Assembly: GCA_000320605.2 (NCBI GenBank)
Contig: KB445814.1
Location: 310,001-374,000, forward strand
Origin: Gelatoporia subvermispora B
Lineage: Eukaryota; Basidiomycota; Agaricomycetes; Polyporales; Gelatoporiaceae
Reading direction: 5' to 3'
DNA: 64,000 bases
Below the pieces are notes generated by a model, which worked only from the letters and a program-made list of their open reading frames with translations, did no database searches and was not told where the DNA came from. A program made the position numbers and the translations under genes. Positions 10,541-63,638 of this stretch are shown here, in pieces (position 1 is the first letter of the stretch; the number at the start of each line of letters is the position of its first letter).

Positions 10541-12189
10541 GTCACAGGTACGGGAGAGATTGAGGTAGAATCTGTATGACCGCGCGTATCTGGTAGCTTT
10601 TATAACGGTGAGTATGGACCCTACTTTGGACGAACACATGAAGGTTCACCGTAGCGCCGGGCGCCGGGCGCGCAGATCCCGACACAACAACCTATGCCCG
10701 TAGGTTCGCGGCTAAGGGTGCAGAACTCGTGTCTTGCACAGGTGACTATCACCGGGCGAGCAAAGGCAGGTAGATGCAGTACATGTTAGCGCAGCAGGGC
10801 CCTGCTGAGTAAAGCACTGGTTAGCATCGGCGAAGTTTGTGCTTCGACGACTTCTGTTCTGTCCACACTAATGGCCATATTGTGGGGCTTTACTTATTGG
10901 CGTCTGGTGTCTACCATAGCGTAACAGCCTCAGATAACCACCGGGGTATGACTAAGAGCGAAGGTTGTAACTCTAATACATTGCCTCATCCAGATGCAAT
11001 GTGGTACAGTTGCGACAATCATAAGCACTCACAGCTACAACTCTACCAGTTGTATTGCAACCGTAGACTCAAACTCGTGAATTCAGAGAGTGCCTGTGGC
11101 ACCGAGGCTGGGCTGGATAGTTAATCAAAGCGTATAGACATGGGAATACTCATGTTTCTGACACACAATGAGGAAACCGGGATCCGATAAGGACCTTGAA
11201 AAGAGCGATGTCGGCATGCGACAGGGATGGGCATTTTGCTCTGCTGTCCGTCAGATCTGAGTGGATCACGCGATCGCTAGGTGCCGCCCGGTTTGGCGCT
11301 TGCACTCGTCTCATGTCCGTGCCTCCACTTGGCTGTGTTCTCTTCCAAGCTTACTGACTTCGATACGTCTTGACTGCCCTGCACCCTGGGAAGAAAATTC
11401 CGGTTATGGCAGATATCCATGTGGATATCGATGCTGTTGTGCCTCATGGTCTGCCTTTCCGGTCAATCTACATCTCTCGGATGGCGCGCTGTTACTTGCC
11501 TGCGGCCTCAAGATGCTCCGCGTACCTTCTTTCCACTCACCCGCCACTCACGCATTCCACAGGGGTAGACTTGGAGATTACCACTCCCAATCCACTCAGC
11601 ATAGCTTCCATGTCTACTCGGGTTGAGCATTATTTCCAGTCAACGGGCCAGGGCTGCGTGACGTGCGGGGTCATGTCAGGTGCTATGCAGAACTGTTTAG
11701 AGTTTCATCGACTGGAACTGGATAATGAAGCTTCCCCCCAGAATGAAAAACATATCCGACTCTCGTTCGCACATGGCCTGTATGATTTTGCTTCTTTTGA
11801 CACATCCTTCTTTCTGTGGCCTTTGTAATTGTGCCTCGCTGCTCGTCTTGCAGCTGTCTTGCAGCCCTCGTTAAGACCAGTTACCTGCAATAGTCCAATG
11901 TATATCGAATGCGCACAGCTTTGCTATCGGCAGTGTGTCGTCCGAAGGCGAAAATGACCAGTCTGATAGCGTGTGGACGTCTGTAGGGGCTGTAGCGCGG
12001 CAAAGATTGTTCAGGATGCCAAGTACCACATCGACAGTTAGCGTGCAGCCCATGCTATCCAGAGCTGGGTAGAGAGGGTGGGACGTTGCACTTGTGCGTA
12101 TTCTTGGCGTCCGTCATCTTGCTCTGCGTGAAACTGGGTCACAGATAAAGGACTTCGAAGGAGCGTTTGTCACTGGCTGTGTGACCTGA
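10541..12189. other. Long intergenic region, one unassigned ORF
   Basis: No gene is supported over about 1.6 kb. The best frame is 11370-11828 (+), 152 codons starting MTALHPGKKIPVMADIHVD, with no domain I recognise. A 60-codon minus frame at 12053-11871 is equally anonymous. Around 10650 there is a GC-rich patch without coding character. Confidence 0.35.
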
Positions 12190-12790
12190 TGTGCACCGAC
12201 AGACACACGAGACGACTTCGACGACGGGCCGGCGGCTGCAACCTGACGTAGGCAACGCGACCTTTGCCGCATATGGCAGGAGGGTTGCCAAACACAGAAG
12301 GGACACACGTGCGGGGACATGTCGGGGTGCGTTCAACTTCGCTGTCTGTCGTGATCTTGTCCTCCTTCTCATTCTCAACTCGCCGCTCCTATGCGCGCGC
12401 ACAGCTATTATCACCTCCCAGCTCCTCGCGCACGGTCGCCATAGTGTACCGACACACTGCCGCCCGCAATCGCGCCCTCCGCCGCCGCCTTCGACTTCCT
12501 CTCTCTCGTCTGCGCGGCCCCTGCAACCTGGCGTTCACACCGTTCACCAAGGCTGATTACTGCTAGAAAACGGGTTGCACATGCTGCAGAGGTTCCGCTC
12601 TACCCGCTCTACCCACACCCTAAACCTTGCGTCATCTATACACCGAATCGCCGATGGGACCGTTACGGTTACCGTCTTCTCCGACCTTCACGATGACGAG
12701 AACTCCTGGGACATGTGAGGCCCTCAACAGGACATCAGTACCGCATGACATATCATTCGTCTTCTGCAACAGGATGCCTATGTGCGGGTC
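12190..12790 (+). pseudogene. Metallophosphatase fragment, copy 1 (N-terminus)
   Basis: N-terminal remnant of a calcineurin-like metallophosphatase. It carries the shared upstream block (12261-12313, with CACGTG at 12306) and then a decayed leader region like those of copies 2, 5 and 7. Near 12665-12740 it reads TVTVFSDLHDDENSWDM, stop, GPQQDIS. SDLH is the metal-binding D-x-H motif of the superfamily. The similarity ends near 12790, so the rest of the enzyme (NGD, GNH and GHxH motifs) is missing. No continuous reading frame remains. Confidence 0.6.
12261..12313 (+). repeat. Shared upstream block R, copy 1
   Basis: First of five copies of a roughly 55-base block whose most constant core reads TATGGCAGGAGGGTTGCCAA. 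A CACGTG hexamer follows at 12306-12311. Confidence 0.7.
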
Positions 12791-13133
12791 ATTTGCTGAT
12801 CTCTAGGGCGAAATGCGGTAGAAACTCAGATTGACGGATATACGCATATATCCGCTCGTAACACGGTAAGCGCCCATCCGTTGGATGTATCCATTTGCAC
12901 AACTTACTCGTGTAGGATATATCCGACAATCTGAAGTCACTTGCATCGTATATATGTCATAATTGCAAAAGGGAACTCCCGCTGAGCATGAGATAGACAG
13001 GATACCATCGAACAATGTATAAGTAGGTGAATGAGCTACCAACAACGATAAAATTGGGTAAGAGAGAACCTCAAGTCGGGTCGCGTGAAAGTATTATGTA
13101 CAATGGGGACATAGCATGGCATGAGGACGACCA
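12791..13133. other. Intergenic, no gene seen
   Basis: AT-richer spacer between phosphatase copy 1 and the membrane-protein pseudogene. Around 12835-12930 there are short imperfect inverted motifs built on ATATATCCG, with no coding character. Confidence 0.35.
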
Positions 13134-14658
13134 TTAGATGGTGAAGAAGCCAGTCCAAGTAACCGTCTCAAACACACCATTTGGCATACGACGGAGCGAA
13201 ATGAACATCTCCACAAAGAGGAAGCCTCGTATGTAGAAGACAAGCATCGCCCATATGCTTAGCAGAGAGTATGCGAGTCTCTGCCGTTCGATCATTCAGA
13301 TGTTTCCAAATTCCCTTCTTGCATGAAATCGGGCGGGTTTTGATGTGCCAGACAATCCATAGGATTATTCCAGGGAGTGATGCCATGACAGATGCAATGC
13401 GCCATAGTAAACGTTCGATGTCGGTGGGAAAATAACTGCCCCAAGCGATGCAATGCTATGCCCCGAAGGTAGCGCTCACAAGGATGTAGATTAGTGAGAT
13501 GATCTTGCCGAGGTGCTTGTCGCTCTCGGATGGTGAAGGAGGTGCAAATATTTGAAGCAAATAGTCAGCGATTTCATAGCACAGTCGGACGAGGGTCTTC
13601 TTGTGAACATGGAGGATATATTTCGTGATGGTTTTTTGCTGAAGGTTACCGTGCTCAACATCAACCCACGCATCTCGGATGTCTCGGGCAACATCCCAGA
13701 TCTTCTTCGCAAGGAAACCCAGCGGTGAGGGAGTGGGTGGAGGACGACCATTATCGTGCGAGGAGGGCCAGATAGAACCATCTTCAATCTGGATACGTGT
13801 CTGAACATCCTTCGGCTTGTAGAACCAGACCAGGTACAGTATCACGGTGATTGCTACATAACCAAGGGTGCCGACTTCGAGGATTGAAAGTGGGAGATGT
13901 TGGGCAGTACGTGCGCAACATTGCAGCACGAACCACATCACCTGCGTGAGAGTGATCAGTTTGGAAAATGTGTCGGCCTTGCTTTTGTCGTTGATCTGGA
14001 AAGTGAATGTTGTTGAACGAGCGATCTGCCGTTTGTCCTCGAGTTCGATAATCCTCTCCAACGTCACAACGGTCTCCCGGTGGCCATCGCGTAAACCAAT
14101 ATCAAACCCTCCCATCCGAGCGTAAAATCCTTCAGTCAGAGTCTACCTCTCTCGTTCCCTTGGCGACTCCTTCTCTGGAGGATCATCCTCTGACATATCA
14201 TCCCCTCCATCTCCTCCATCCTGCTCGTGCCCTGCGTCCCCTCCGCCCCCTTCTTCTTGTCCCCCTTCTCTTGCACGCATTTCCTGGTACTTTCCGCGGC
14301 CCCGGTCTGCTTGTGGGACATGGAATTCGCCGGCAAGACTCGAAAGGAAAGTTGAAGGAGTGTCAGGCAAGCTGGCATTTTCCTGATCTGACGGATGAGA
14401 CTGACAGAGGGCTTTGTTACACCTCCGTACGTCGCGTCGCACGTAGATGAATTCGGTAATGGCGAACGTTAATGTGAGTTCTGGAGAAACGATCATGAAC
14501 AATGCCCACAGCATCTTATATAGAGTCAGATGTCTGGTGATATCGGTGCGAACAGACGTCCAGGTACAGAGAATCAGGAGCGAGATACATGTCCTGAGAA
14601 TATCGAATGTCCCGCGAGATGAGGGGTCTGGGAAAATCCCATCATGTGTATCTTCCGA
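13134..14658 (-). pseudogene. Decaying multi-pass membrane protein gene
   Basis: Uncharacterised membrane protein of a family common in Polyporales-like fungi. From 14658 the minus strand reads SEDTHDGIFPDPSSRGTFDI, then CTWTSVRTDITRHLTLYKML and PELTLTFAITEFIYVRRD, an acidic Gly/Asp/Glu-rich loop, EGFYARMGGFDIGL, further hydrophobic segments (LGYVAITVILYLVWFYKP and LGKIISLIYILVSATFGA), SYFPTDIERLLWRIASV, and a final helix with FLFVEMFISLRRMPNGVFE before the stop at 13134. Two in-frame TAG codons interrupt it (14143-14145 and 13456-13458). A frame change near 13300 separates the last helix from the rest. The first exon upstream of 14658 is not identified. The protein similarity is otherwise well kept, so inactivation looks recent, or the assembly carries errors. 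Confidence 0.65.
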
Positions 14659-16460
14659 CTAGGAAAGTAGCGCAATGTGTTTCAGTAGTGTCCGAAAGAA
14701 GGGAATGTGTGTGGACAGACCATCGAGTCGAGCAGACCTTCCCGCTTGTACGAGGGAATGGGCACGGAGGAGTTGGTACACAGCGGGAGTGAAATTGAAA
14801 GAAGAGCGGGTCAACCAAAGGCCTATCAATGCGTAGGATTCACAGAAATATCATGACCAAGTAGAGCATCATGTCAACAGCGCAGCAGTAAACGTTGCAT
14901 ATGAGCCGTGAACAAAACATTCTAGTATAACAGGCACCAGAAGTTCTCAGGAGCGTGTGCGCATATGCTTGTGCTTCCAGGCGTCGAATACATGCCGTGA
15001 CAGCTGCCGCAGCGCTCCAGGGAGTAACAACGGGGTTTGATGCGTGCGAGGGCACAGTGCGCAACAATGGCAGGCGCCGAGAAGGAGCCTCAAGTTCATC
15101 GATCGACATGTCCACCCGCAAGATTTCTCTTATCTGGTTCTGACATAGAGATTGATAATTCCTGCATTTCGAGCACTGTCGAGGGAGAGCAAATCTAAAT
15201 TGTGCGACAAGCAGGTCTTCGAAGGCTGTACGGCAGAGCGGCAAATTCAACGGACACACCGCCAACCCATGACAGTTCGGTCGGTGTTATCTGAGCCGCG
15301 AAGGCTTCCCTTCAATCCATGGCATCCCCTTGACCTCAAGGCTGCAGCGTGTGCTATCACGTGATGAATATACCTATCCGAATGCACCTGCGTCGAGACT
15401 CCGGGAGTCTGGACGCAGGTGCAGTCTGATTCCACGTAGATACGCCGGAACTGAGCGAGAAACCAGGTCTAATCGTTTAGACACATCCTCTGATTGGGCC
15501 GCGAGCAAGGCATGTCACAAAGCCAATACTGCAAGAACTCAGTTGAGCGGACGCTCTACGCAGTGCAAGGTGACATCCTCGAGATGAAAGTTGAGTTAAT
15601 GAGTGGTATCGGTTTGAATGATTCATTCGAGGTTTATCAGCACTGATTGGAAAGTTTGCAGAAGGTGATGTGCATACGGAGAGCTCTCCACACTATCGCC
15701 TATGGGACCAGTCTCTGTCAGTTACGGATCCGTCACATGCAGGTCAAGTGAAGGGCTCACGTCGGCGACTATGTGTGCGAGCACGAGTTCGCGCTCAAGT
15801 CCATCGGCACAATGTTACTTCAAGCTCGGACCCTAGATCAGGTCCTCGTTCAAGTCGGTTACCAGGACGCCGCCTGTACATGGTCTCGCCGCCGCGTAGT
15901 GCACACCGCGGGTATTTCCGCGGGTGTTTAGCCATCTATCCGTACCCATCGCGTCTAAGCCTGTGGGCTTGAAGCACAGCTTGTTGTGCTTGTAATTCAA
16001 CGGTGAGAATGCGTACCTCCTGGTCAAGCTAGTTAACGCTGAAGCATCTTTTTACCCTCATTGCACAATCAATTCGATCTTCGGTCCATAGGCAGGGATG
16101 AAGTGCTGTAGCCTCTGAAGCTAGAAGGTGTCGATTCTTGAAGTGCAGCCATCAGGCGCAAAGGCACGCGTACCTGGAAGACCATCTACGTTGGAATATA
16201 GGGACTCGGTGTAGCCCGGACATGATGCAGTCTTGAGGACTTGCAGGACGAGCTGTACCATCTACGTCGTCGCTGCCAGGCTTACGATGTGGGATTTGCA
16301 TGTATGTCGCCGCCGGCCAGACATCCGATGGGTTGCTTGCTTGACGCCTGGCCAGAAGATCGCAACAGAATCTCGGTGACATTGAGTGAGGATCGAGGAT
16401 CGAAGATCGACACTCGACACTCGAGAAGTACCGATATGTGATAGACGGGAAGAAAGCGCA
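14659..16460. other. Long region without a supported gene
   Basis: Several frames of 60-141 codons (for example 15265-14840 minus and 15670-15972 plus) show no family motif and overlap frames on the other strand. The 5' exon of the membrane-protein pseudogene probably lies near 14700-14830. I recognise nothing else. Confidence 0.35.
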
Positions 16461-18020
16461 CATGCGTGGCCGGAATTTGGCGCGAGGAATGTGAACTTTG
16501 CCAGATATGGCAGGAGGGTTGCCAAATGCAGACGAGAACGCACGTGCACAGACGCGTCATCCATGCGTGGGCGCGCAGTTCCCTCTGGCTTCTCGGAGTC
16601 GTTCTGTCAGCGGCATATACGCTCAGCTCAATCGCTTTCTTCGCCTTGTCCGGGCTTGGTATAACTTCGCTCCTTTGCGCGCGCACAGCACATGTAACCG
16701 GGGCACCGTCGTCCCGAGCGGCATTCTCTTTGCATGCTCTCTCCTACCCGATCAAGCCCAACGCCGCGTTTCACTCTGGCCGCATGCTCAAGATGGGCGT
16801 ATTCTCTGACCCTCACTACGGCGAGGAATCCCTGGGACGCGTGAGCCACAACAAGACACCAATACCGCATCTGATGAATTTTGTCTTCGCCGACGAGAAG
16901 CTCGGCTACGTATGAGTGTCGAGCTGGGAAGGGGCGAAGGAAGGTAGATGGACTTGTATTGAATGGCGACCTTACCATCGGAGAATGTTAGTGCACGTAT
17001 TTGGGCTTCTTGAAGCATCGCTGACTTTCGTCCGACGTATTCCCATGGACATTGTTCTCGCGGATGAGCAGCCCGATTATATGTAGGCTATTTGGTTGTG
17101 TCGAGGGAGAAATGGGTGGGAGGGACCTCATTGCCAGGGTTAGTGAGTATCCCCTCGCTCTGCTCGCCGCATGGCCAACTCTTGCCAGTCATCGTTTTCT
17201 AGAATTCGTTCCAGCTCATCGACGAGCTCGCCCCGTCCCTCGACAGCTGCCGCATCTCCTCGTTCATACACGGCGTATACCCCTCACTTCCCGCGCTCAC
17301 CTTCCCGCTTCCACCGCCCTCTACACTGGCACTGCGCTTCCTGGAGTCGTCAGCGAGGTGAGATCCGGAATGTACTGTGTCCCCACGAGTCCCTGGACCT
17401 CCGCACCACACTTTGGATCGCGGCGTGTGTGCTGATGAATTACGGTGCAGGTGTATCAGCACGAGAGTAGTGCGTCACGGTGATCCTCGACTGGGTATAC
17501 GCACTGCCAAAAGGCTGGGACACACGTGCATCTGCCGTTCGTGTGGTCCTCCCATCTATTGTCTACGTCTCGATCACATCTCTTCTCTCTCCGTAGCAAA
17601 GATCGCACTAGTCTTGCCGCCACTCGCAAAGTTACCATAAAACGCTAAGCATCACCTAGCTTGAAGAGAACCACACATTGTCCGCTTTGTTTACGCGCGG
17701 CTGAAGTAGCACTGGGGTGGAGTACACAGATGCGCCGCCCGTGCTCATGCTATGATTGTCCGACTCGCGAGGTGTGTGTGCTCGTAATTTCACTTAGCTG
17801 TGTGGCTGACTTCGTCCTCTTCCAGAGTTCTACATCTGGCACCGTGCAGTTTCCCGCCACTTTGCACCTCTCTAGCCCATCCCCGCTCGCCTTTCCGCTC
17901 TTCCTGGCGGCTTGTCTCCCAGTAGGAGCTCTACAACCGTCCCAGACTGGGTCGAGAACACTGTCGCGGGCAGGGTCGAGCAGTAGACCTCGCTGATGAA
18001 CGCCGCAGGGGTATTCCGGA
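16461..18020 (+). pseudogene. Metallophosphatase pseudogene, copy 2
   Basis: One of the longer decayed phosphatase copies. After block R (16489-16548) a frame reaches GRMLKMGVFSDPHYGEE (about 16775-16825), preserving the D-x-H motif, followed by MNFVFADEKLGYV and a stop. Around 16950 the NGD motif survives in LVLNGDLTIGEC. Scattered fragments in changing frames follow to about 17460. A late segment at 17905-17995 reads TVPDWVENTVAGRVEQ, a stop, then TSLMNAAG. The C-terminal GHxH part is absent. Many stops and frame changes; no splicing pattern restores an open frame. Confidence 0.7.
16489..16548 (+). repeat. Shared upstream block R, copy 2
   Basis: Second copy of the block, with the core TATGGCAGGAGGGTTGCCAA identical to copy 1 and CACGTG at 16541-16546. 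Confidence 0.75.
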
Positions 18021-18059
18021 GAACTCCGCCACTGTGACGAGATCGACAAGCACCAGGAG

Positions 18060-18714
18060 ACAGGTGAGAGCGGCTACGTGCGGTGTTCACGCGCGGTTAG
18101 AGCCCAGCGCTAGAAACGTGAACTTTGCCTGCTATGGAAGGAGAGTTGCCAAATGCAGAAGAGGGCGCACGTGCGACGACACGCCAGGGCGCGTCCATGC
18201 GCACGGCAGCTCCGCTCGCGCTTCTCTCTGGCTTCAAAGTCCTGCGTCAACCTCCACTCTACGACACCATCAATATTGTCGTCCTCTTTGATGTCCACTA
18301 TGGCGAGAACCTATGCGACGCGTGCGATCAAAAGCAGAATGTCAACAACTCCCTCCTGAATTCAGTACATCGTCCTCGCCGACCAGAGGCCAGAATATGT
18401 ATGGGCTATCTGGTTATTTCGAGAGCGGGATTGATATGACTATTGCGGCTTGCGGCTTTTTGAACGAGGAGCCCATTATCAGAGAGAGTGAGTAACCCCC
18501 GCGCCGCTCGCCGCCTCGCTAACTTCCACCAGACATCTTCCTCAAGGATCCCTCATCAGCGGGATCATCATGCTCCTCATCGGCTACCACATCTTCTTGT
18601 CGTTCGCACGCGGCGTACATCTCTCCCTCTCTTCCCGGGAGCGCTGCCTTTGGCGGCAATGAGCCGGATTGCCCATCTCTAGCCATCGTATTTCATGTCT
18701 TTCCTGACGTGCGC
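18060..18714 (+). pseudogene. Metallophosphatase fragment, copy 3 (N-terminus)
   Basis: Starts with block R at 18116-18175. Near 18270-18345 it reads VVLFDVHYGENLCDACDQ, keeping the D-x-H signature in the form DVHYGE, then QNVNNSLLN before the frame is lost. Short remnants continue to about 18700, including GYLVISRAG near 18400. Directly downstream is a DCPS-like fragment rather than the rest of the phosphatase, so the copy was joined to other sequence by deletion or rearrangement. Confidence 0.62.
18116..18175 (+). repeat. Shared upstream block R, copy 3
   Basis: Third copy; the core has two changes from copies 1 and 2. CACGTG at 18168-18173. Confidence 0.7.
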
Positions 18715-19015
18715 ACGCGCCACCGCGAGGTATGTTCTCTGCACACTCACTCGGGTAGCCTCCTCAATGTGGATACTCAGTCCGCTATAGACTTCTCGCC
18801 GCTGCTCTCCACGCCTACCGATCTGCAGTCCCAATTGTCCATGCTCTCTGGAAGCTCGCCAGGGCACAGAAGGCCTCTCGTTCGCCATCGTCCGCAACAG
18901 AGGACCGACCCCACAAGTCTAGCGCGGGAGAGCAGCTTCAATAGGCACTGCGCAACGCGGAGCTCATCAAGAGCACCGACATTGTGCATTACCTGGTACT
19001 GAGGGCACATCGCTC
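18715..19015 (+). pseudogene. DCPS-like fragment (exons 1-2)
   Basis: The DNA around 18855-18975 aligns by eye with exon 2 of the intact DCPS gene at 3629-5049. The clearest stretches are FAIVRN (intact: PAIVRI) and LRNAELIKSTDIV (intact: LRDARLIESTDI), the latter near 18950-18990. A stop lies in the middle (about 18920) and there is no open frame across the fragment. It is on the opposite strand to the intact gene and is flanked by phosphatase remnants. Confidence 0.65.
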
Positions 19016-19129
19016 TACCCGCTACACGCTCGCCGGAGGCTAGATGTTCGAGGGTCCCGCAGTATCCCGCGCAGCTCTGGAGGGAGCCCTCAGACCTCTA
19101 CCGCGTTTTGTTTTGGCTGCACAACGACA

Positions 19130-19440
19130 ATTATCTTCTCCCGCCACGAGCCGCTTACCGTGTCAGTCAGCGAAGGGCCCCGGGGGCTATGCGTACTGGG
19201 TGCCACAGACATGCGCTGGACGTTGACGTTCCTGCATCTACCGCCATGCGTCATCTTTTTTTGTAGTCTCGATATCGTGGGTCCGAACGCGGGGAGCTAG
19301 GGGCGTATACGGTTCGATTGTTTCGAACAGGCGCGCAATCCAGGTGCTACGGCCGACGCTCAACAGTATGTAGGACCCCAGGTTGACCCGGCCCTTTGCC
19401 TCGCCCTGTTGTCCCATGGCGTGGTATCGCAACTTCTCGT
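19130..19440 (+). pseudogene. Metallophosphatase internal fragment
   Basis: Short decayed piece. GPGGYAYWVP near 19175-19205 resembles GEEGPGMY in copy 5. AIQVLRPTLNSM near 19335-19372 matches HAIQTLQPTLNST of copy 4, and DPRL follows the stop as in the other copies. It probably belongs to the same damaged unit as copy 3. Confidence 0.5.
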
Positions 19441-19744
19441 GCCTCTAGCTGGGGCTAGCTGTACGCAACACTCGGGAGTCGGCACGCGGAGCACTCTCAA
19501 CGGCGTCTCATGTTACTGAATAGCAGTTGCTACTGAGTTCGCCTGTCCGATGTGTTATACCTGGTCTGCGAATTCTGCTTGTATTTGTCCCTCCGCACAT
19601 CCTAATTCAGTTCATGTGGTTCGGGGGTGACCACATTGTATAAGATCTAGATAGGGAACTGGACAACGACGAAAGACAAATAACGGTAGTTCTAAGAGGA
19701 TAAATCATAAGAATGGCATCATATTGCACGTGCTAAGAGCTCGA

Positions 19745-22479
19745 TTAGAACATGCGGACCCTCTTTGATGAGGACGAGGAAGGAATTGACGATGTTGCTC
19801 CAGGTCCGAGCGTACCAGCGGGAGAGTCCTCTGCCTTGCGTTTCAATATTGGGCGAAAATCTTGATCGAGAACCTCATTGCTGACTGCACGTCCTGTATC
19901 AGCTGACTGAGGCTCAAGTTTGCAAGTCAGAATGAGCCTACGCACCGGTTTCTGATATCGCTTCGACCTCGTCACTCCGTTCCTGTGACGAACAAGCCTC
20001 GGAGTTTTCATCGCTCTACAGTATCAGGGGTTCGAGGCAGTCGCGCTCAGGAAAAAGAACAGGCAGACGGACCTGGTATTCGTCAAGCTCCAGGGGCCAT
20101 GATAGAGGTCCTTGATCTGTACTCAAATCCTCTCCTTGTACGACACTCAGAACATCAGTGATCTCCGGTCGTCTAGAACAGTCCTCAGACCAGCAGCTCT
20201 CCATCAGTGTCCACATTGAGTCGGTCAAACCGACGGTTGATGTGACCGAGTGAGGGGGACGAGCAGGTCGTACGCCTCTTGTTATTTTGCGAATAACTTG
20301 GCCATCATTTTGGAAGTTATGGAAGGGGACATGTCCTGTGAAAACCTGCGCACACGTGACGATGCATTAGACAACACCATGTCAGGTAAATATGACTCTG
20401 ACCTCCCACATCGTCATCGATAATGAGTATATGTCGGACGCTTTGGTGAATCTACTTATGTCGGGCAATCCAAATTGCTCTGGGTCCAGAACCTCGGGAG
20501 CAGCCCATCGTATTGTCCCAGTCATAGGAGTCGTGGGCGTAAACGAAGTTCCGAGGTCAGTGATCAGTGTTGCTATCCCAAAGTCGATCAGACTCGCAAC
20601 ATGCTCCTTGTTGACAAGTACATTTGCCTATGTTCATAAATCAGTAATGTACGCGACAGAGATCATTAGTGATATTAACCGCTTTGAGGTCCGCGTGCAC
20701 GATTTCTAATGCATGTAAATATGCTAAACCGTCCGCAATGTCCCGCACCTGCAATGGTGTCAGTGGTGATGAGGCTGATATATGTACGATATTACCAGCT
20801 TGGTACGGTTCGACCTTGGGTTTTTGAAAAGATACTGCGAGACAGTGCCTAATGGCACCCATTCTGATACGAGGCAAAGAGGGTATAAGGACACATCAAC
20901 GCCGTGAAAGGTCGCAATATTTCTGTGCCGAAGATGCCTCCAGATCATTGCTTCTCTGAGAACCCGCTGGTTCATTTTCAGCTGACCCATATTGGACTGG
21001 TGCGGAGATAGCACTATACCTTTACAATTCGTGGATCACACCCGAATTCACGGCTGGACACAACCACCTTCAACGCAACATCCTTTTCATCGAGCTTCCC
21101 TCGAAACACACGCGAAGAGCCCCCAAATGCTTCTGCAGTGTCTCCAACCTGCTGTAACGATTGCAACCGGAGGACGACGGCTTGCGGATAAATTTGGTTC
21201 TTGGCGCATAGATGTCTGAGTAACTTCAAACCACGCTGATGACGGGTCTTGTTTGTCGGATCAGTGTGACATAGCCCCTGCATTTGGCGAGCGGCGTTAG
21301 TGACAAGCAGAATCAAACTCGGGACCAAGGCAATGTAAGTTGTGAAACAATGTACACACCTGATCTAAAAGGTCTACGGCAATTTTTGCATCTGCACCGC
21401 CCAGAGCCTTGAGAGTTGACAATGCAGTCTGTACTATATTCTCATTGACACCCGTATGTTGTGTGTCGAATATCTGATCAATGAGCACATCAATTGCGGG
21501 GATCTTGGGGTCACTGCATGATAGTACAGAATGCACCAGTTCTGGCACTTGTTTGCGAGTTTCTTCCTGTAATTCGCCAGCTGGACCTTCTTCCCCCCGT
21601 GGCTCCTGTTCATGCCCCTGTCTCAATGCGTCATCGCTATGATTTAGTGCTTGGCATTGACGCTCTCTCCTTATCGTGTCTACAAAGCGATTGTGCGCTT
21701 CTTCTGCCTCTTCCTCAACCATTTTCAATAGCTTTTCATGGCGTCGTCGCGATTCTTCCGGGAGCATCTCGGCAGCTGCTATCAAACTAGGAAAATTGGA
21801 TCCATCAGGCCCTATCGACTACTGAGCAATATTGATGCTCGTGACTCGTACCGTCGATGGGCTTGTGCAGCTTCCATTATGTTGTCACTACGAGAAATCC
21901 AGTGGTGTCTAGGCAGACTCAACAGCTCTTTGAATTCCAGTCTATCCTCAGGAAACAATAGTGCAGAATGATAGACTACTCACCCGTCGATTCGGACGAG
22001 TTGATCCCCCCCTGCTCGCCACCCAACCTAGCATCATCTGTATTGTGTAACGAAGCGGACTCGTATTGATCGGTTTCTGCCTCAGGATTGTCTCCGGGAG
22101 TTCGAGCCAACACGAGCTCGTCCACTGTGTCCGCTTCCTCCTGCTTCTCCGTGGCGCGCTCCTCCGATCTAATCATTACTTGTGCCCTCTGCTCTTCCCA
22201 TTCTAGACAGGATCCTAGAGTAGGAGCCGGTCCGAGTTCAAGGCCACACTGTTCAGCTGGTAGTGCCAGATTTGTCATACAGGCCGGGGTGTCTTTGGAT
22301 GAGTAGATCTGGGGCTGGAATAGTTCAATTCCCGAGTGTAAGTGCGGTATGTGATGTCCTAGGCTACACAAACAGGACAAGGTGGAGATGAGTTGAGTGG
22401 ACACTGTAGGGTAGGCAGTGGAAGTGTGAGCACAGCCGAGGACATCTTGTACAGGCACGTATCCCATCGTGGACATCAC
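19745..22479 (-). CDS. TKL-type protein kinase with basic C-terminal tail
   Basis: Second complete family member. The N-terminal exon (from 22479, start uncertain) holds an acidic disordered region ending GEQGGINSSESTG. Then come EMLPEESRRRHEKLLKMVEE, a Glu/Arg-rich helix, and STLKALGGADAKIAVDLLDQ just before the kinase part. Kinase features: FGGSSRVFRG, VALKV, MIWRHLRHRNIATFHGVD, catalytic loop VHADLKA (Ala for the Arg of HRD), LIDFGIA, RWAAPEV, SLSMTMWEVFTG and ESCWSEDCSRRPEI. Unlike the kinase at 5789-8632, an intron after LDEYQ leads to a tail, SDENSEACSSQERSDE, and a last exon ending SSSSSKRVRMF, a likely nuclear localisation patch. The intron near 21840-21800 does not join in frame with the signals I chose, so the N-terminal model may hold an error. 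Confidence 0.75.
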
Positions 22480-22929
22480 CCGATGTACCGATTTAGGTCA
22501 TGCTATGTACATCGCAGAAATAGAATAAGATTTCTCTCCATCTCCCTGGACGAATTGTAGAGGAAACATATATACGATACTCCCAATGTATGATCGCATT
22601 ACCTCACAGCCTACCTCGCTCGGTATATCGTATTTGTGCTGGCTGAGTACACCTTGTACACATCATAAATTGATCCTTAACACACTACAGAATATACCAG
22701 CTGTCGCTGGGACTTGATTGGCTGGATCGGATGTCCCATGCCGGTATATTGAGAATCTTCTCAGTCCCAACCGTTGAACGTTGAGAGCGTACATCAGGAA
22801 AACATCGCGTTGACTTTGACGCCTTCTACCTGCCTTTCGAGGCTTGCTGGCGTCTTCACCGCCCTGTTGCGCGCCAAAAAGGTGTCAAAGTCGCGCCCAA
22901 GAACCAAAAAGGCAGGCAAGTAAAATGGA
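22480..22929. other. Spacer between kinase gene and phosphatase copy 4
   Basis: Upstream region of the minus-strand kinase. No coding frame with a recognisable motif and no block R copy. Confidence 0.35.
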
Positions 22930-24510
22930 TGTTTTCCTGATGTACTCACTACAATCCAGTCATTATCTGCTTAGACAGCACGTTCAAGATCACCGTCTTC
23001 TGCAACCTGATAGCACGAGGCCCATGAGCATCGTCCCTGCGGATGGGAAGCCTGACTCAGGCCAGTGTCTCGTTACTCTGAGTCTGAGGCAAGATGCGGT
23101 GGATGGACTGTGTTTCAGTGTTCTGAACGGAGATCTTTCACCGGAGAATGTGAGATTACCCTCGGACTGCTCAAGATGTTGCTAGCTAGTAACACCAGAC
23201 ACATCCCGCCAGAACTTGACGAAACTCATCGACGAGATTGTTGCGCCCCTCGATATCTTCCGCATCGCATTCTCGTCTACCTACAGCGTACGCCATCCTC
23301 GTCCTCCTCTACCCGCCTTCCGTGACTCGACCATTTTCCTTCTCTCTGCTTGCGCTCTGCACTTTGAGCCCTTCGTGTTCGCCTTCGCAAAGATCACGCT
23401 GATACCATCACCTCGCAGAACCCGAACATCACCCACCTCGAAGAGATCCGGCCCGAGCAATTCGTCGCGCCTCTCAGATACACTCGCACCGTGCCTCTAG
23501 GCATCAGCAGCGGGACCTCGGGAGGGCCCCTAGATGTACTGAGGACCAGTGAGCGTAGCACACCAGGTCTGCACGCGTGGGCCACTGATGGTTATTTGGC
23601 TCTGCACAGGTATGTAAGCACGAGAATGGTTCGTCGGGGTAATGTTTACCGTGCATGCGCGGCTGAAGTGCGCTTGGGGTAACTCGCATGCACACGCAGC
23701 ACCCGTGTTTGTCCTGTGATTCCTCAACCCGCGCGGTACGTTCACTCACCGTGCCCTCCCGTCCGCATAGCTGACATTGTCTGATCCTGCGTCAACCTCG
23801 TGCATAATCATTGCATCTCACTGACCCGCATATCTTCTCCTCATCTCACCGCCTTTGGATCCCCCACGCTCCATCTCCCTTCTTCCACCGCGCTCACAAG
23901 CGGCTTCTCCCCCGGCGAGGACTTGACCGCTGCCCCGGACTGGGTGGACGACACCGTCGCGGGCTAGATCGAGCAGCAGACTGCGCTGACGGACACTGCA
24001 CGGGGAGCCCCGGGCGACATTCGTGCCGCGCTCACGTTTGTGTGTATCCCACCGTGCGTTGTCTTGTTTGCGTCACTGTTTGCTGCTCTTCTTCTACATT
24101 CAACCCGCGTGGCTTCGCACGCTAAGGGACTTGCGTTGGTCCCAAGCACTGTATGCGCGTGCTTGCGCCGTTTTTCTCCCCACCCGCAGCGATTTCCGTC
24201 GAGTCGTTCCAGGCTTACGCTGTTTGTTTTGGGACGTCACGCAATCCAGACGCTCCAGCCGACGCTCAACAGCACATAGGACTCCGGACTGAGCGGTGCG
24301 CACCACATAGGCTCATCATACATTGTGGATCCGCAATTGACTGGAGGGGTTGACTCGGGCTCGACGCAGGTGACGGCGGACTTGGCGGACCTCGGGAAGG
24401 ATCAGCCCTTCTCGGACTCGCTCAATGCAGACGTCAAGAATCTGCATGCTGTCATTTCAGGGCGTGGTGCGTATGCGGCAATCTGGCTAGTACGCTGGCG
24501 CCGATAAAAG
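22930..24510 (+). pseudogene. Metallophosphatase pseudogene, copy 4
   Basis: The most complete decayed copy, readable from motif 1 nearly to the C-terminal metal site. Order seen: TFKITVF then CNL where SDL is expected (about 22980-23010, D-x-H lost), VLNGDLSPENV (about 23120), KLIDEIVAPLDIFRIAFSST (about 23220-23280), NPNITHLEEIRPEQFVAPLR then YTRTVPLG (about 23415-23500), AAPDWVDDTVAG, stop, IEQQTALTD (about 23930-23995), HAIQTLQPTLNST (about 24238-24278) and GKDQPFSDSLNADVKNLHAV then ISGR (about 24395-24465). In the last segment SGR stands where a GHxH motif would be expected. Block R is absent. Several stops and frame changes. Confidence 0.75.
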
Positions 24511-24979
24511 TGAGGAGTGAATGTGCCAGGACAGGCCATCTGCAGAGGGACTTCGCGCTTACATGGGAAGATGGACTTGGCGGGATCTGCGATGAAACTG
24601 CGCGCAGTCGCTCAAGCTATGCACTGAGCACTTATACTTGCTCGTATAAACTAGTTCTGCGGGTTAGATTAGGTGGATCCCCTGTGATCAACAGCCTTTG
24701 CGGGTATCTATGTGTCATCGAGGCCTGATAGATGCGGAGAATCTGTGGTTGGAACGTCCATGGCAAGTGTGGAGCGAGTAAGGATTACCATGCTCCGTGT
24801 GTTGTCAATTTCTGTGCAGTGAACCTTGGATATACTCGGGAGATATGAATAAGCCATACATACGTGAGCGGAGGGAATCAGCTCGACATGACGCCGACGT
24901 GCGCAGTCTGAGTGCGACTGGTTGCTGAATCTCGTTCTCCTGTGTGCGGCAGAGCAAGCAGACAGAAACTCGATGGACA
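24511..24979. other. Spacer between phosphatase copies 4 and 5
   Basis: Nothing recognisable. Small frames on both strands lack motifs. Confidence 0.3.
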
Positions 24980-26940
24980 GATGAGAAGAAGGCGCGCGCG
25001 GGGTGTTTGCCCGGCGCGAGCAAAGTGAACTTCGCCGGATATGGCAGGAGAGTTGCCAAATGCAGACGAGGACGCACGTGCGCAAACGCGTTAGTGGCGC
25101 GTCTACGCGCGCGGCGGCTCCGCTCGTTGACCTAGTGTGCGTCTGGGCCTGCTCGGGATCGCTGCTCCTTCGCGCGCACACAGCGCATACAACCACCCTG
25201 TTCCTCGCGCACGACGTTGTCCCCGCTGCACGTACAACTACACGCTGCTCGCGGTCGTCCTATCCGCCACAGCTCTCGACCTCCTTCTCGCCGTCCGCGT
25301 GGCCCGAGACAGCCCCTGGGACGCAGCAGCACGTCTACGAGCAGACGAGAAGCGTGACCATGTCCAATTGGTCCGAGGCGGGAGGCAGTACAAAACTATA
25401 TTATAGCGTCCGGTATGGCGAAGTGATCATCCAAGAGAGTGAGCTGCTCACGCCGTCGCTAGCGCTAAGTGGTCCTTACAGACGTCTCCCGCCAGAATCC
25501 GACGAAGATCATCGACGAGGCCGCCTCGCCCCCAGCTGCCCAGTGCGCATACTATGTTCCTCCACACATGGCGTGCTTCCTTTCTCCCCTCCCTTGCCTC
25601 ACTTTCGCGCGTCGACCGTGCCCGTTCCCCGGCTCCTTATTCCGTATGTACCGCGCTGGTATTGCCGCACCCGGCGCGCAGCCAGGACAACGAGTCAAAC
25701 ATCACACTTCGAGGGTAGTCACCGCGAGCAGCTCGTCACGTCGCTCGAATATACCCGCGCATTGTCTTCCAGCGTCGGCGGTGAGGAGGGTCCGGGGATG
25801 TACCAAGCACCGATGAGCGCCAGCGCACCAAGTGTCATGCGCAGGTTACCGACCAGGTGTATCATGACGCCGAGAATGGTGCGTCCAGGTAGCTTTTTGT
25901 AACGTGTATGTGCGGCTCAAGGTCGGTTGGGAGCAGACGCGGCCTGTGCTTTTTCTGTGGTCCTTCAATTCACGCGATATGTACATGGTGCGCTCACCAC
26001 GAATTCCTGCCCACGTCGCCGACTTGACTGTAACCTGTGTCCGTTTCATGCCTCATTTCTTCTCATTACTCGGCGTCTCCCCTGGTCCTGGTTCATATTT
26101 TCCCGTATCCACTCTCGCAACCCGCCACTTGCGAATGCGAATGCCCGGCGGACCCTCCACTCTTCTCCCGCGCCCTACGCCACTACCTCTTCCGCCGCAC
26201 GCCACCCTCAACTTCCAACTCCTCGCATCACCGCCGCCGCCTCGCGTCGAGCTCACAAACGGCTTTTATCCGAGCTAGAACTCGACCGCCGTGTGTGACT
26301 GGGTCGAAGACACCCTCGCGGGCTGGATCAAGCAGCAGACCGTGCTCACGGACGCCGCGTGCCGGACGGGGTGTGCGAGATGTTCGCATTTGTGCACATA
26401 CCGCCGTGCGTCGCGGTCTCTGCTGATCCGCGTTATTTCGCTGCCTTGTCCTGTTCCGTCCGTCGTGTCGCCGGCGCCAGGCGGCTTCATCCTTGGCTTG
26501 TGTCCACGCGGCATGCTCGTGGCAGACTCCAGGCTCGGATGGACGCGACGCCGCTTCGCTTTGTGCCCGTGGTGTCGTCGAAGAGAAGAGAGGAGAGGAG
26601 GGTCACGCTGACGCACTTCGTGTGGCGCGGCCCCGGGCACACTGCGATACGGGCGCTGCAGAGGACGCTCGACAGCACGTAGGGCCCAAGGCTGGACGCT
26701 ACCTCCCCCGACCTTGCTGCACGAACACGGACAAGGCTGACGCGTGCCGCAGCGGGCTTCGACGATCCGGTTCGATGTAGGCGATGGGCCAATGGCCGGC
26801 TCAGTGGACCAGGGCGATGATCATGGAGGATACAGGGACGCCAGCTGGGCTATGGCGTGCGAGTCGTTGTGCTCCCGTGGCACACGCTGGAGTCATGGTT
26901 TCAAGCTGAGGGTGGGGAGATACGAGTGAGAGTGCCGCTG
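24980..26940 (+). pseudogene. Metallophosphatase pseudogene, copy 5
   Basis: Starts with block R (25024-25082). A 299-codon frame (25003-25902) runs through but mixes homologous and shifted segments, so it is not an intact gene. Recognisable parts: SRQNPTKIIDEAASP (about 25488-25530), CSSTHG (about 25553), HREQLVTSLEYTRALS then VGGEEGPGMY (about 25718-25803), TAVCDWVEDTLAGWIKQQTV (about 26283-26343) and TAIRALQRTLDST (about 26640-26680). A C-terminal piece follows near 26815-26935, with PWHTLESWF and EIRVRVPLDED. It is followed by a DCPS-like fragment in the same orientation. Confidence 0.7.
25024..25082 (+). repeat. Shared upstream block R, copy 4
   Basis: Fourth copy; the core reads TATGGCAGGAGAGTTGCCAA and is followed by CACGTG at 25075-25080. 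Confidence 0.75.
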
Positions 26941-27039
26941 GATGAGGATCGAAACTAGGGAATGTATCTTGGTATACCTTCCCCTCTGCCGCCCCCCTTC
27001 CTTCGCATCCCTCGCTCTACCTCTTCGAATAAGTTTCTC

Positions 27040-27325
27040 CGCATGCTCCACTATGATTGCCCCAACAGGTATGCAGCCCTCCATCGTCCACCCACTACAG
27101 CTCGCTAACCCGACCGATCTGCAGAGCTGCCGCTCGCGCTCTCACGGCTTACGGAAGCTTCCCATACGCTGAAGCGCTATGCGCATTACCCTGGCCCTCG
27201 GTTGGCTCGCAGCTCAGAAAATGAAGACGCACCCGAGGTCGAAATCAACATCATGCGCCCCGCTATTGAGGTGTGCATTAGCAAGGCGCGTCACGCCGCC
27301 TTAATCCCGAAGACGTAGTTCTATG
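27040..27325 (+). pseudogene. DCPS-like fragment (exons 1-3)
   Basis: Near 27215-27290 the plus strand reads ENEDAPEVEINIMRPAIEVC then ISK, matching exon 3 of the intact gene (SVDAPDVKINVIHPATDVHIRK, split here as SVDAPDVKIN and VIHPATDVHIRK). The sequence after ISK continues as GCGCG, the same place where the intact gene has its GC-type donor. Upstream, 27115-27200 holds scattered exon 1-2 remnants. It lies directly after the C-terminal piece of phosphatase copy 5, so the two genes were probably neighbours in the duplicated segment. Confidence 0.65.
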
Positions 27326-27399
27326 CAGCCTCGCCAACGCGGCGCACGCACTGCCGCCCGAAATTTGCCAGGGCAACCAACTAGTGCCTGTCACCCCTC

Positions 27400-27720
27400 T
27401 GGGCCATGCCCGTTCGCATCCCCGCTTTTACAGGCGGCTTGTCTCCCAGCAGGAGCACAACAGCTGGCCCAGTCTGGGGCGAGGTTACCATTGCGGGCAG
27501 GATCGGGCAGCACAATGACTCCGCGACTGCCGCCGAAATCGCCGCGCAGCGAGGAGAACGTTGTGTGCGGTTTGCGGAGCCAGGCGCGGGTAACGTGGCT
27601 TTTGCTATATATGGCAGGAGAGTTGCCAAATGCAGACACGCGCGGCGGCTCCGCTGGGGCCTCTCTGTGCGCTTCGCGGGGTCGATCTCACCGTGGGCAT
27701 AGTCCGATGTCCCGATTCGG
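27400..27720 (+). pseudogene. Metallophosphatase internal fragment, copy 6
   Basis: Reads GGLSPSRSTTAGPVWGEVTI then AGRIGQ (about 27430-27510), aligned with GGLSPSRSSTTVPDWVENTV of copy 2. It then runs straight into block R (27595-27640). The same join, internal phosphatase sequence followed by block R, also occurs from copy 2 into copy 3 (17905-18175), so the two junctions look like copies of one rearrangement. Confidence 0.6.
27595..27640 (+). repeat. Shared upstream block R, copy 5
   Basis: Fifth copy of the block, with the core as in copy 4. The CACGTG found after the other four copies is missing here. Confidence 0.7.
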
Positions 27721-27979
27721 GGCACGCTGAGCACATGCTGTGAAACTATCATATTTCCTCTAGGTGTAACCCACGTGTCTCTTTTGAACACATGCCGAAC
27801 ACAGTTAAAATGTACTAGAAATCTATCCTGTGCTCAGGATGTCCCAGGGATTTTTGGGAACATTAATCATGTACTCAAACTTTTCATACCTTGAACATCG
27901 ATGGTATGTGTGGGGGACAAACAGTATTTGAGCGATCTGGATCTAGCATGTCCCAAGTCAGGACATCAGTCTATGCCCA

Positions 27980-29700
27980 CGGTGTCTGTGCTTCTGCTTG
28001 ACTTCTGCGCACGACCTGGACTATCGCGTTCTGAGCTGTGGCCGGACCTGCTCGGGCTCGCTCCTTTGCGCGCGCATAACGCATACGACCTCCTCGATCG
28101 TGCTGCGTGCGCGGTCGCCCTGTACATTCACGATGGTGCCCCGCCGCAGCCCTTGGGAACCTAGGCCTGTATGTCGTCTGCAAACACGAGGTACGCACCG
28201 CTCGTCCCGGCTGCTCGCTGCTCGCTGACGAGCTGCACATGCGGCAGATGCCGCGCTCAACCCGCTCGACCTGCCCGACTCATGTCCAACCGAGCCCCGC
28301 ATCGCCTTCGATCCCGGCGGCAACAGGATCACCGTCCTTGCCGACCTCGACGAGAAGCCCGATCACGCGCGAGCCCCCGGTTGGTCTGAGCGGGCAAAGT
28401 ACGGTGGACTTGTATCGGAGCGGCCTGAATGGCGGTCTTATCACCGGAGAGAACTGCTCGCGCCGTCGCTGACAATATGCGCCAGAGCTTAACGAAGCTC
28501 GTTACGAAATCCCCGGTCGCTCCCCACCCGGGTGTCGCGCTCCGGCGTACGTCTCTCGCGTGCTGCACCCGAACCCCATCCCCATCTCGATCGTGTTCCC
28601 TCCCCGACTCTCGACCTCTGTGCAGATCAAGGTCATACTATCGCCTCGCGCAGAACCACGGCAACTAGCCGAACGCTACCCGTCTCGAGGGATCGTCGCG
28701 AGCAACTCGTTGCGCCCCTCATCTAGTTTAGAACTGCGCCCTCTGCGCCGGGCGGTGAGGGGACCCCGGGTACGCACATACTCTTCATAAATCCCCCGCG
28801 ACGTGTTTCGGGTCTCGGCGTGCGTGCTGATGAGCCCAACCCTTGGCGCAGGTGTATGAGCACGGGAAGGATGCGTTGAGACGCTGATCTGACCGCGTGT
28901 ATGCGCGACCGAAGTATGGCTGGATGCTGTGCACGTCGACGTCGTGCCGGTGCTCGTGCTCGTACTGTGATTCTTCCACACCTGTGGTACGTGCGCTGTG
29001 CGTGTCCCCCGTCCGCGCCGCTGACCATGTCTGCTCCCTGTATTGACGTCCTACTTTACATTTTCTAGCCGTCCCGTGTCTCCTCGACCCATCTCCCTGT
29101 CCCCTCCCGATGCACCACACTGCCACTGCGCCCACAGGCGTCTTCTCTCCCGACGAGAACTCGACCGCCGTCCCAGACTAGCTCGATGACACCGTCGCAT
29201 GATGAGTCGAGCAGCAACCACGCCGATGGATGCCGCGTGGGGCGCACCGGATGACGCGCATGGCGCGCTTGCTTTTGTGCACGTCCGCCGTGCGTCCTTG
29301 GTTCTTCTGCGTCGCTTCGTTCCGTTCACTCCTGATCGGTTGTATCTGGTTCTTCTGCGTTTGATTTCGCTGGTCTCACGCGCACGCGCTGAGGGCTTTG
29401 CATCAGACCCCACTGCCGTATGCACATCCGCCGATGCTCTTCTACTTTGTGCCCGCAGAGTTCTCGTTGAGAAAACCAGACCGGCGCGGTGCAACGAACA
29501 CACACGCGAAGGCTGAACAGTGCGCGGGACTCTGGGCTGAATGGTGCACCCCTTTTCCCCTCCTCGTCGTACCTCTGACGTGAGCTGCAGCGGACCTCCT
29601 CGACGCAGGCGGTGACGGGCGCGCTGAACGCGAAGTTGCGAACAGAGAGATCTGCATGTGGTCATCTCGTAACACGGTGAGTCTATGTAAATTTGTTTGC
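27980..29700 (+). pseudogene. Metallophosphatase pseudogene, copy 7
   Basis: Long decayed copy. GGNRITVLADLDEKP (about 28315-28362) replaces the usual SDLHYGE, so the D-x-H motif is lost. LNGGLITGENCS (about 28420-28455) carries Gly for the Asp of NGD. Further pieces are RREQLVAPL (about 28690), VEQQ near 29205 followed in another frame by MDAAWGAPDD then AHGALAFVHV (about 29228-29285), and SSTQAVTGALNAKL near 29595-29640. Stops occur throughout. The unit ends about 70 bases before the stop codon of the minus-strand F-box gene. Confidence 0.68.
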
Positions 29701-29767
29701 AGATCTCGGGGCGCTCACCCTCTGTCGCCCCGCGCAGATCCTGGGAACGAGAGGTGTCGTCGCGAGC

Positions 29768-32139
29768 TCATTTGTGGTGGGTGTGATGTAACAGATATAG
29801 CGACGCGGGATGGGAACATGGTGTGTGCATCATTGTGTTCTTGTCAACGCACCCGGAGGACAGGCTCGAGTCCTGGATCTGGGTCGAGAGCGAGGGAGCT
29901 GTTGGGCAAGAATTATAGTGATTGAAGAAGATCGTGTATACCTCTGTGTATTTCAATACGGTCAGGGCACAATACAAGAAAGCTGTTTGCAAGGTTTGCA
30001 AGTAATGTTTGGACTGGGTAGGGGAGACATCAAACTCGGCAAGTAGGTTCAATAGTCTACTGAATGGTGTATATACAACAGGAAATTCACGACGTCTACG
30101 AGCAGCGTTCATGAGCCCGCGATTGGCTTCACAACAATGCGTCGGATATTTCGCTGATGCTGGTCGAGCTGCATGAGCATCGACATCAGTATCAGCACCT
30201 GCATACGAGCACATTGCGATGAATGGACGCACATCCAGGCCGATGATGCCGTCCTCGTCAAGGAGCAGGCTGTTGTGCCCGTGCGGTTCCGCGCCGACGA
30301 TCTCCGCGTATGGCAGCGCCGTCACCACCGGCTCGCCGAACACGTCCGCGTCCGACTCCGAGGGCTGCTCGACGAGCTGTATGCGCGCGAGTGCGCCCTC
30401 GTCCTCCGAGTCGAACGCGTGTCCGCCCTCCGCGTCGAGCGAGCCCCCGCACTCCGCGCCCGCCGCCGCATGACGCGCGAGGAGCCGCCGGTACGGCACG
30501 ACGTTGAAGTCGCACAGGTGCGCGGGCTCGGGGTGCAGCGCCGCCCGTCGGAGGGAGCTGTTCAGGACGAAGCGCTGCCCGCAGGTTGTGGTGATCCAGC
30601 GCGTAGCGAGCGCGTCGGCGGGGAAGAGGCGGCAGGCGGGCGGGCCCCAGGTGGACCAGGGGATGAGTGGCGTGTGCGAGGGATCGGATGCCGGGTGTTC
30701 GCGCAGGCGTTCGGGTGCGTCTTCGCCGTTGTCTTCGGCTCTGCGCTCTGGTTCTGATGAAGGCGAGGAGGGAGAGGGAGGGGATGGGAGCGATCGGGCT
30801 GGGTATGGGCGCAGGAGCGCGGCGCGGTGCGTGACGAGCGAGAACGTGTGCAAGCGCTGCCGCGTGTCGAGGATGAAGATGTTGAAGAGCGCGATCGCCG
30901 CGCTGGGTGCTGGGCGGAACGGCGCGCGTGCGCGGGCTTCTGCAGGGGCGGTGCGCTGGGCGGGCCCGCCGGTCGGGGTCGGTTCGGCGCGGCACCAGAT
31001 ACGGAAGGGGATTGCGTGCACGGCGAGCGGTGGGAGCGCGAGGTGGCGCAGGGTGCGGAGAGGGGCGGGTGGAGAGGGGGATGGGGGGGAGGAGACGTCG
31101 CAGAGCTCGAGTGTGTGCAGGTGCAGGTTCGGGAGGACGACCGTGTCTGCGTCGAGGAACGCGAACGCGTCGTACGTCCCGTGCTCGGCCTCGCGGAACT
31201 ATGGCGGAGCACACTGTGAGGACGCCGCAGTGGAATGGAGTAAACGCGAGGAAGGACTCACAAAATGCGGGTGACCGGTCCTCCAGTCGATGAGGTAGAA
31301 CGCGGACTCGCGCGGCTCGATCTGCGTGAACGGGAAGTTGAGGAGCAGCCCGAGCTTGTTGCCGACGATCTCAACGGACAGCGAGCACTCGCCCGGGACG
31401 AAGGGGCCCTCGCAGACGGCGATGCACGGCTTGGATGCCGCCGGGTGGTACTCGCCCGTGGAGAGCTGCACGAGGTGGATGCTGATCGCCGCGGTGAGGT
31501 AGTCCTGCCGCTCAGGGAGGAAGCTGGCTGTGTGTTAGTAGTCATTGAGAGCAAGAGGCAGACGACGCACTTGTAGGTCACCACTGCTATCAAATCATGC
31601 TCGTGCACCGCTAACCCCACGTCGATAATCTTCTGATTGAGGTTGATGGTCTGCCAGACCGAGTCGCCCGGCTGCTTGATGACCTCCGAGTTGACACGTG
31701 CGGTGCGCACGGCGTCCGTCCCACCAAAAAGCGACGCCGAGTGCGTCTGCCCGAGGAGGAAGACCCCGGAGCTGAGGTCGTAGATGCTCGAGGGGTTGAA
31801 GGACACGGAGATGGAGTGCGAGGGTCCAAACTCGAGACGTTGCCAGGCACGCTCTCTGGCCCTGAGGAGGCGACAGCGCTCCGCGAGAGGGACCGTCGAG
31901 TCGGGGTTGTCCTCATACGCTGCGATGCCGAGCTCGATGAGGTACTGCAGTTGAGCGCTGCCTGTCACAAGTTCGCGGAGGAGTCGGCATGTTTGTTGGC
32001 TCGCTAGAATGTCGCCATAGTCCAGATAAGATAATATATGAAGAAGCAGTTCGGGGGGGAGGTCTAGCAGAGGCGAGAGCTGTATAGTGGGGGTCGAGGA
32101 TGCGGCCGAGGACACCGGAGGCATGTTGGTCGCGCTCAT
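29768..32139 (-). CDS. F-box protein
   Basis: Substrate-receptor type F-box protein, expected to bind Skp1 in an SCF ubiquitin ligase. Three exons join in frame: 32139-31571, 31523-31262 and 31198-29768. The start MSATNMPPVSSAAS is chosen because an upstream in-frame ATG (32268) would overlap the divergent deacetylase gene. The F-box is clear: LSPLLDLPPELLLHILSYLD then ILASQQTCRLLRELV (about residues 20-60). The remainder is the long beta-strand-rich region common in agaricomycete F-box proteins, with FREAEHGTYDAFAFLDADTV, IFILDTRQRLHTFSLVTHR and TALPYAEIVGAEPHGHNSLL. The last 155 codons after DEDGIIGLD do not look like the family; an intron starting at the GTGCGT there, or an earlier end, is possible. 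The third exon is very GC-rich. Confidence 0.82.
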
Positions 32140-63424: not shown

Positions 63425-63638
63425 TCTCGGTCAGGTGAACACATGCAGCCTGTTTCTGCGTTGGCTGGAAATGGTCAAGTGTGGCCTGGCGAAGTCGAGA
63501 CTGGGAGCGGTGTTGCCAGGGAGTGTGGGATGGACCAGCTGGGGACCAGGGAAGCTCCTCCTCTACTTGGTCTGACCATGCACAATGAGCTTGTTCTGGA
63601 GTTGCATGCGGGAGTCAGCAACGAGTGTTGTCATCCAT

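Follow-up and report, generated by a model that had tools for sequence, protein, structure and literature searches.

A 64,000-nt stretch of contig KB445814.1 of Gelatoporia subvermispora B (C24:310001-374000 in the contig numbering used here; hereafter the window) contains seven partial copies, A to G, of one calcineurin-like phosphatase gene (PF00149). All of them lie on the + strand, between positions 12254 and ~29919 (Table 1; coordinates of the copies are window positions). The original prediction, made from the letters of the window alone, had placed at least seven partial same-strand copies, none of them intact, at 12190..29700. Number, strand and location were borne out by tblastn and blastn, with slightly different ends. 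A read-through of copy D retrieved 26 homologous proteins, 25 of which carry a precomputed PF00149 domain; the best homologue was the Obba rivulosa protein P0001 (56% over 98% of the query). When P0001 was searched against the window by tblastn, 17 high-scoring segment pairs were obtained at E<=1e-3, all 17 on the + strand and inside 12190-29990, and control searches of the window with reversed P0001 and 50 shuffled proteins returned none. With the intact unit described below as a blastn query, collinear blocks were found and resolved as the seven copies. All segments can be aligned, introns included, to a single parent protein and parent gene; a failure to align to one common parent protein, named in advance as refuting the idea, was not seen.

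Table 1. Phosphatase copies, promoter cores and kinase gene pieces in the window.
Feature	Position	Strand	Remarks
Copy A	12254..12745	+	promoter block and exon 1, plus most of exon 2; cut short; W67 codon reads TGA; blastn to intact unit 78% and 68-69%; exon table
Copy B	16465..18011	+	promoter block through exon 8; stops; exon-2 donor lost; exon 5 partial; SDPHYGE and NGDL legible
Copy C	18101..19386	+	promoter block through exon 9; exon 1 gone; DVHYGE legible; blastn finds nothing past exon 9
Copy D	22959..24482	+	exon 2 (partial) through exon 10, introns kept; promoter gone; stops in exons 5, 7, 8, 9
Copy E	24984..26956	+	promoter block through last exon; exon 11 gone, exon 2 mostly gone; stops in exons 8, 9, 10
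Copy F	27392..27534	+	exon 8 alone, with end of intron 7; 73.5% to intact gene, 77% to copy B
Copy G	27578..29919	+	promoter block through last exon; deletions, stops, MITE-like insertion in promoter
Promoter core, copy A	12272..12298	+	two changes from copy consensus
Promoter core, copy B	16506..16532	+	
Promoter core, copy C	18133..18159	+	one change from copy consensus
Promoter core, copy E	25040..25066	+	
Promoter core, copy G	27610..27636	+	27/27 identical to E
Pieces of a protein kinase gene that faces copy D head-to-head	20136..21548	-	Pfam PF07714/PF00069 on 20382-20627; related to the intact gene's kinase by tblastn on the contig

No copy in the window is intact and none has the full exon set. 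In six of the seven (A-E and G) the reading frame is damaged by in-frame stops, frame-changing indels, exon loss or splice-site loss (small indels in the exon table come from a cheap-gap alignment and their counts are upper estimates). The earlier statement that every copy carries stops or frame changes therefore holds for these six, and F is a fragment of one exon. Copy D is the best preserved, with one blastn alignment to the intact unit over 23010-24472 (68%, E 7.7e-135). Metal-binding motifs are scattered and incomplete, and the motifs first noticed were found again: SDPHYGE in B, DVHYGE in C, and NGDL in D and, read from the DNA, in B. A truncated exon 8 immediately precedes the promoter of the next copy twice, B before C (17906-18133) and F before G (27430-27610); B and F are 77% alike in this region, and the arrangement hints at duplication of a two-copy block. 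In copy E a 305-codon open frame (24985-25902) spans promoter, exons and introns, possibly by chance. The promoter of copy G contains, just past its core, an element of ~296 bp (27689-27984) that resembles a miniature inverted-repeat transposable element (MITE), with 40-bp terminal inverted repeats that are 83% complementary. The element occurs at 10 other genomic sites, at 7 of these almost complete, and its insertion in copy G is probably recent, since the element at C24:174842-175138 is 99% identical.

A working copy had been suspected outside the window. A complete gene is indeed present on the same contig at C24:438088-436086, on the minus strand, ~96 kb beyond the end of the array. Its model, made by homology with boundaries set by hand to fit P0001, has 12 exons, GT-AG in all 11 introns and a 382-aa product that is 89% identical to the Obba rivulosa protein. 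The spliced gene scores 50.9 bits against PF00149 (cut-off 21.5), and the translation carries SDLHYGE, NGDL, GNHD and HDHGN; DxH, GD, GNHD and HDH we take to be the metal-binding motifs of the Metallophos (PF00149) family. Judged by eye, the N-terminal residues look like a signal peptide. A PDB sequence search with P0001 at E 0.01 gave no match.

The genome searched comprises 37.7 Mb in 52 contigs. In a DNA search with the intact unit, all 21 matches were the intact gene itself or the array, a lower bound, as this search missed an eighth relic (H) at C24:425546-426018 on the + strand, which covers the exons 3-7 region ~10 kb from the intact gene. A protein search of the genome found one further distant relative, on contig C4 (32%). 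A genome-wide exon-by-exon PF00149 profile scan picked up none of the window copies, missed the intact gene too, and is uninformative on the copies. With tblastn of open frames at the loci concerned, six weak matches were obtained (best E 3e-4), judged to be chance; the way to the parent led through the read-through of copy D.

A protein tree separates six copies plus the intact gene from 12 proteins of other species, with 97% support. Their former coding state was assessed by comparing identity to the intact gene at codon positions 1+2 and 3, with CpG sites masked. Identity is higher at positions 1+2 than at position 3 in B (0.82/0.64, p=4.5e-4), D (0.86/0.73, 1.5e-4), E (0.81/0.66, p=7.6e-4) and G (0.84/0.66, 3e-5). 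Several copies may therefore have been coding for a time after duplication, the bias suggesting protein constraint on B, D, E and G before they died. The relaxed selection expected among the copies is thus only part of the picture, the codon signature of these four suggesting earlier purifying selection.

Several observations weigh against the birth-and-death account of the array set out below. The signature is borderline in copy A (p=0.046) and absent in copy C (p=0.53), and any comparison with the intact gene takes in that gene's own constrained branch. Among the copies themselves, 12 of 15 pairs are not significant in the codon-position test, the other three being D-E (0.021), D-G (0.0095) and E-G (0.04). 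Stops common to three copies each occur at codon 191 (B, D, G) and codon 262 (C, D, E), and those at codons 67 and 219 are shared by two. Such stops could mean duplication after death, yet few codons are eligible and the sharing does not clearly exceed chance (triples P=0.078, pairs P=0.086), and they were set aside as proof of it. Branching between copies is poorly supported in both trees (protein 14-77, DNA 31-45), and the alignments were built on the intact gene, which pulls the trees towards a star shape. Since H escaped the genome unit search, more decayed relics may also lie elsewhere.

The promoter block is present in A, B, C, E and G and lost from D and F. Within it, ~270 bp upstream of the start, lies a 27-bp core, TATGGCAGGAGRGTTGCCAAATGCAGA, found in these five copies and in the intact gene; the region that would bear it is gone from D and F. 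The core holds a gapped palindrome, TGGCA-N7-TGCCA, which is altered at one position in C and at one in the intact gene. After the core comes CACGTG, both in the intact gene and in copies A, B, C and E; G lacks it there. Throughout the genome, the core's 21-bp part occurs with <=1 mismatch at six sites only, namely the five copies and the intact gene. At three mismatches, three further sites appear; the backward control gave no sites. The palindrome on its own has three exact matches, all in the array, and 11 one-mismatch matches, three in the phosphatase family and eight elsewhere. Relaxed to <=2 mismatches it has 56+56 genome matches vs 17+23 for the backward pattern, and the bare palindrome may be a wider motif.

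Conservation of the core was measured in several ways. It holds the best conserved 24-bp window of the 553 with >=4 copies aligned (mismatch 0.042 vs a mean of 0.193, sd 0.047; best exon window 0.10). Column and block permutations, which correct for choosing the core, matched its conservation at most once per 2000 in all nine runs; the Fisher and bootstrap tests that follow carry no such correction. As a clock for the time since death, non-degenerate codon sites of 153 residues >=95% identical over 24 of 26 homologues were used. In the five copies, 3/130 core positions (2%) have changed from the copy consensus, compared with 155/777 clock sites (20%; p=1.6e-8), a comparison that favours the core, whose consensus was built from the copies with one variable column omitted. 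Measured from the intact gene, the changes are 10/135 in the core and 150/744 at clock sites (p=2.3e-4; column bootstrap 237/100000). Under stricter alignment filters p became 0.004 (1222/100000) and 0.17 (6539/100000), the last value using 62 clock columns that were picked because they are highly similar. Identity between copies is 252/270 (93%) in the core, 496/754 (66%) at clock sites and 675/1123 (60%) in introns; with the strictest filter, clock sites reach 88/118 and introns 39/55 (71-75%). The core is therefore probably constrained in the dead copies, although this is not proven and its significance hinges on the measure used.

This does not extend to the promoter as a whole. A promoter-wide "zombie promoter" was rejected: over the -330 to -190 block the copies match the intact gene at 0.75-0.83, which does not surpass codon positions 1 and 2, so that only the core stands out. 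A structured RNA was rejected as well: an Rfam search of 11000-31000 gave nothing up to E 1; alignment folding predicted 26 pairs, 4 of them with compensatory change, and the covariation term was unfavourable (+0.7).

The duplicated unit has homology from about -330 to the stop codon. The intact phosphatase gene stands head-to-head with a kinase gene at C24:439.5-441.6 kb. The kinase beside copy D, which is presumably of TKL type, stands head-to-head with that copy, and copy C ends ~0.75 kb before it. Because the intact gene and copy D each have a related head-to-head kinase, at least one duplication probably carried the divergent kinase-phosphatase pair along (with a caveat that the kinase family is large, 118 matches genome-wide). 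Another kinase lies ~5 kb upstream of copy A (minus strand, 5852-7263), and relic H adjoins one at 426.8-428.2 kb, also on the minus strand; tblastn on the contig found no kinase pieces beside B, E, F or G. The repeated duplication and decay proposed at the outset is thus supported, with a qualification. A single parent and decayed copies were found, but the arrangement is not simple head-to-tail, with a kinase gene between C and D and the surviving gene inverted ~96 kb off. Elsewhere in the window, retroelement pieces with reverse transcriptase (PF00078) and endonuclease/reverse-transcriptase (PF14529) matches are present on the minus strand at 36237-37610 and 62414-63430, and a 27-nt inverted repeat (89% complementary, one base between arms) at 15376-15430.

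Taken together, the array is very probably a set of unprocessed pseudogenes, the remains of one phosphatase gene that evolved by birth and death. Processed (retro)pseudogenes are ruled out by the retained introns, through which copy D aligns. It is highly improbable that repeat-induced point mutation (RIP), or some genome defence akin to it, killed the copies after duplication. TGG>TAG and CAG>TAG changes do account for several stops, but in the mutation spectrum (read without outgroup polarisation) C>T plus G>A rates of 0.105-0.139 do not exceed T>C plus A>G rates of 0.107-0.180, and C>T amounts to 5-12% at CpA and 12-23% at CpG. With no C>T/G>A excess and CpA not the preferred context, a RIP signature was ruled out. 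In the birth-and-death scenario, segmental or tandem duplication would have produced multiple copies of an ancestral gene, about when the Obba lineage split off or later, and in at least one event a divergent kinase neighbour would have been copied with it. Copies B, D, E and G, to judge from their codon-position pattern, would have been functional for some time. Point mutations, indels, deletions and small insertions would then have killed the copies and left one survivor. In the least certain step, the promoter core of the dead copies would decay more slowly than the rest of the unit and perhaps still be bound or used.

How the core was kept can be explained in different ways. Possibly, and here the reading is tentative, the copies are dead as enzymes with active promoters, the core driving non-coding or new short transcripts or clustering binding sites under selection. 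The array would then be maintained as a set of gene-less promoters: a core that in this genome is confined to the phosphatase family would be selected in five copies, where it might fire non-coding RNA or hold a factor for the survivor ~96 kb away. The rank of the core among the 553 windows with its permutations, the few changes from the consensus relative to the clock, the high identity between copies and the restriction of all six close genome matches to copies or intact gene speak for such promoters. Against them, the p-value weakens when change is measured from the intact gene and weakens again under stricter filters, the core was picked for looking conserved, the Fisher tests assume independent cells, and the intact gene's own palindrome carries a change. 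Somewhat less likely, the conservation has no function and arose because the copies converted one another or because the core lies in a local mutation cold spot. However, the cores of E and G are identical at 27/27 positions and the promoter block around them is only 68% identical, and it would be unusual for conversion to hit five copies in tracts this short and this exactly placed. There is little to recommend a short coding exon or upstream open reading frame still translated in the copies. A + strand frame reading YGRRVAKCR is open in 6/6 sequences, and 19 of the 36 changes in a 55-column block fall at its third positions, but this phase bias is not significant (P=0.085). An in-frame ATG before the core is missing in 5/6 sequences, lengths and sequences diverge downstream, and in the ATG frame inside the core the changes are, by eye, mostly non-synonymous.

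A gene graveyard as a kind of thing is already known. Dead gene clusters are common, and the array alone would be a clean example and no surprise; the kept core is the unexpected part. With parent, copies and flanks on one contig, gene death can be measured against otherwise near-invariant sites of the family. If the constraint is real, the locus would show directly that promoters can stay conserved when the genes behind them no longer code, and would offer a testable model of what lets arrays like this one endure. The literature search, made on partial texts, turned up no report of this array, nor of copies like these retaining a promoter core.

As for known systems, the gene belongs with the fungal PF00149 "metallo-dependent phosphatases" (nearest P0001): the intact relative is above the Pfam cut-off and 89% identical, and the copies are legible pieces of the same gene. 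Unlike such phosphatases, the window copies lack a continuous reading frame and none has all exons. Reviews of regulatory or transcribed pseudogenes (PMC12747553, PMC6993246) share the idea of dead copies keeping regulatory roles, whereas what the present array shows is sequence conservation. Birth-and-death evolution is reported for fungal class II hydrophobins (PMC2253510). The phosphatase family comprises lineage-specific duplicates, dead and alive, with one intact gene and eight relics on one contig. Like the unprocessed pseudogene clusters of other birth-and-death families, it combines several same-strand, intron-bearing, decayed copies with one survivor. It differs from them in that ~17.7 kb hold seven dead copies and no live one, and in that a short promoter core has been kept in five of these.

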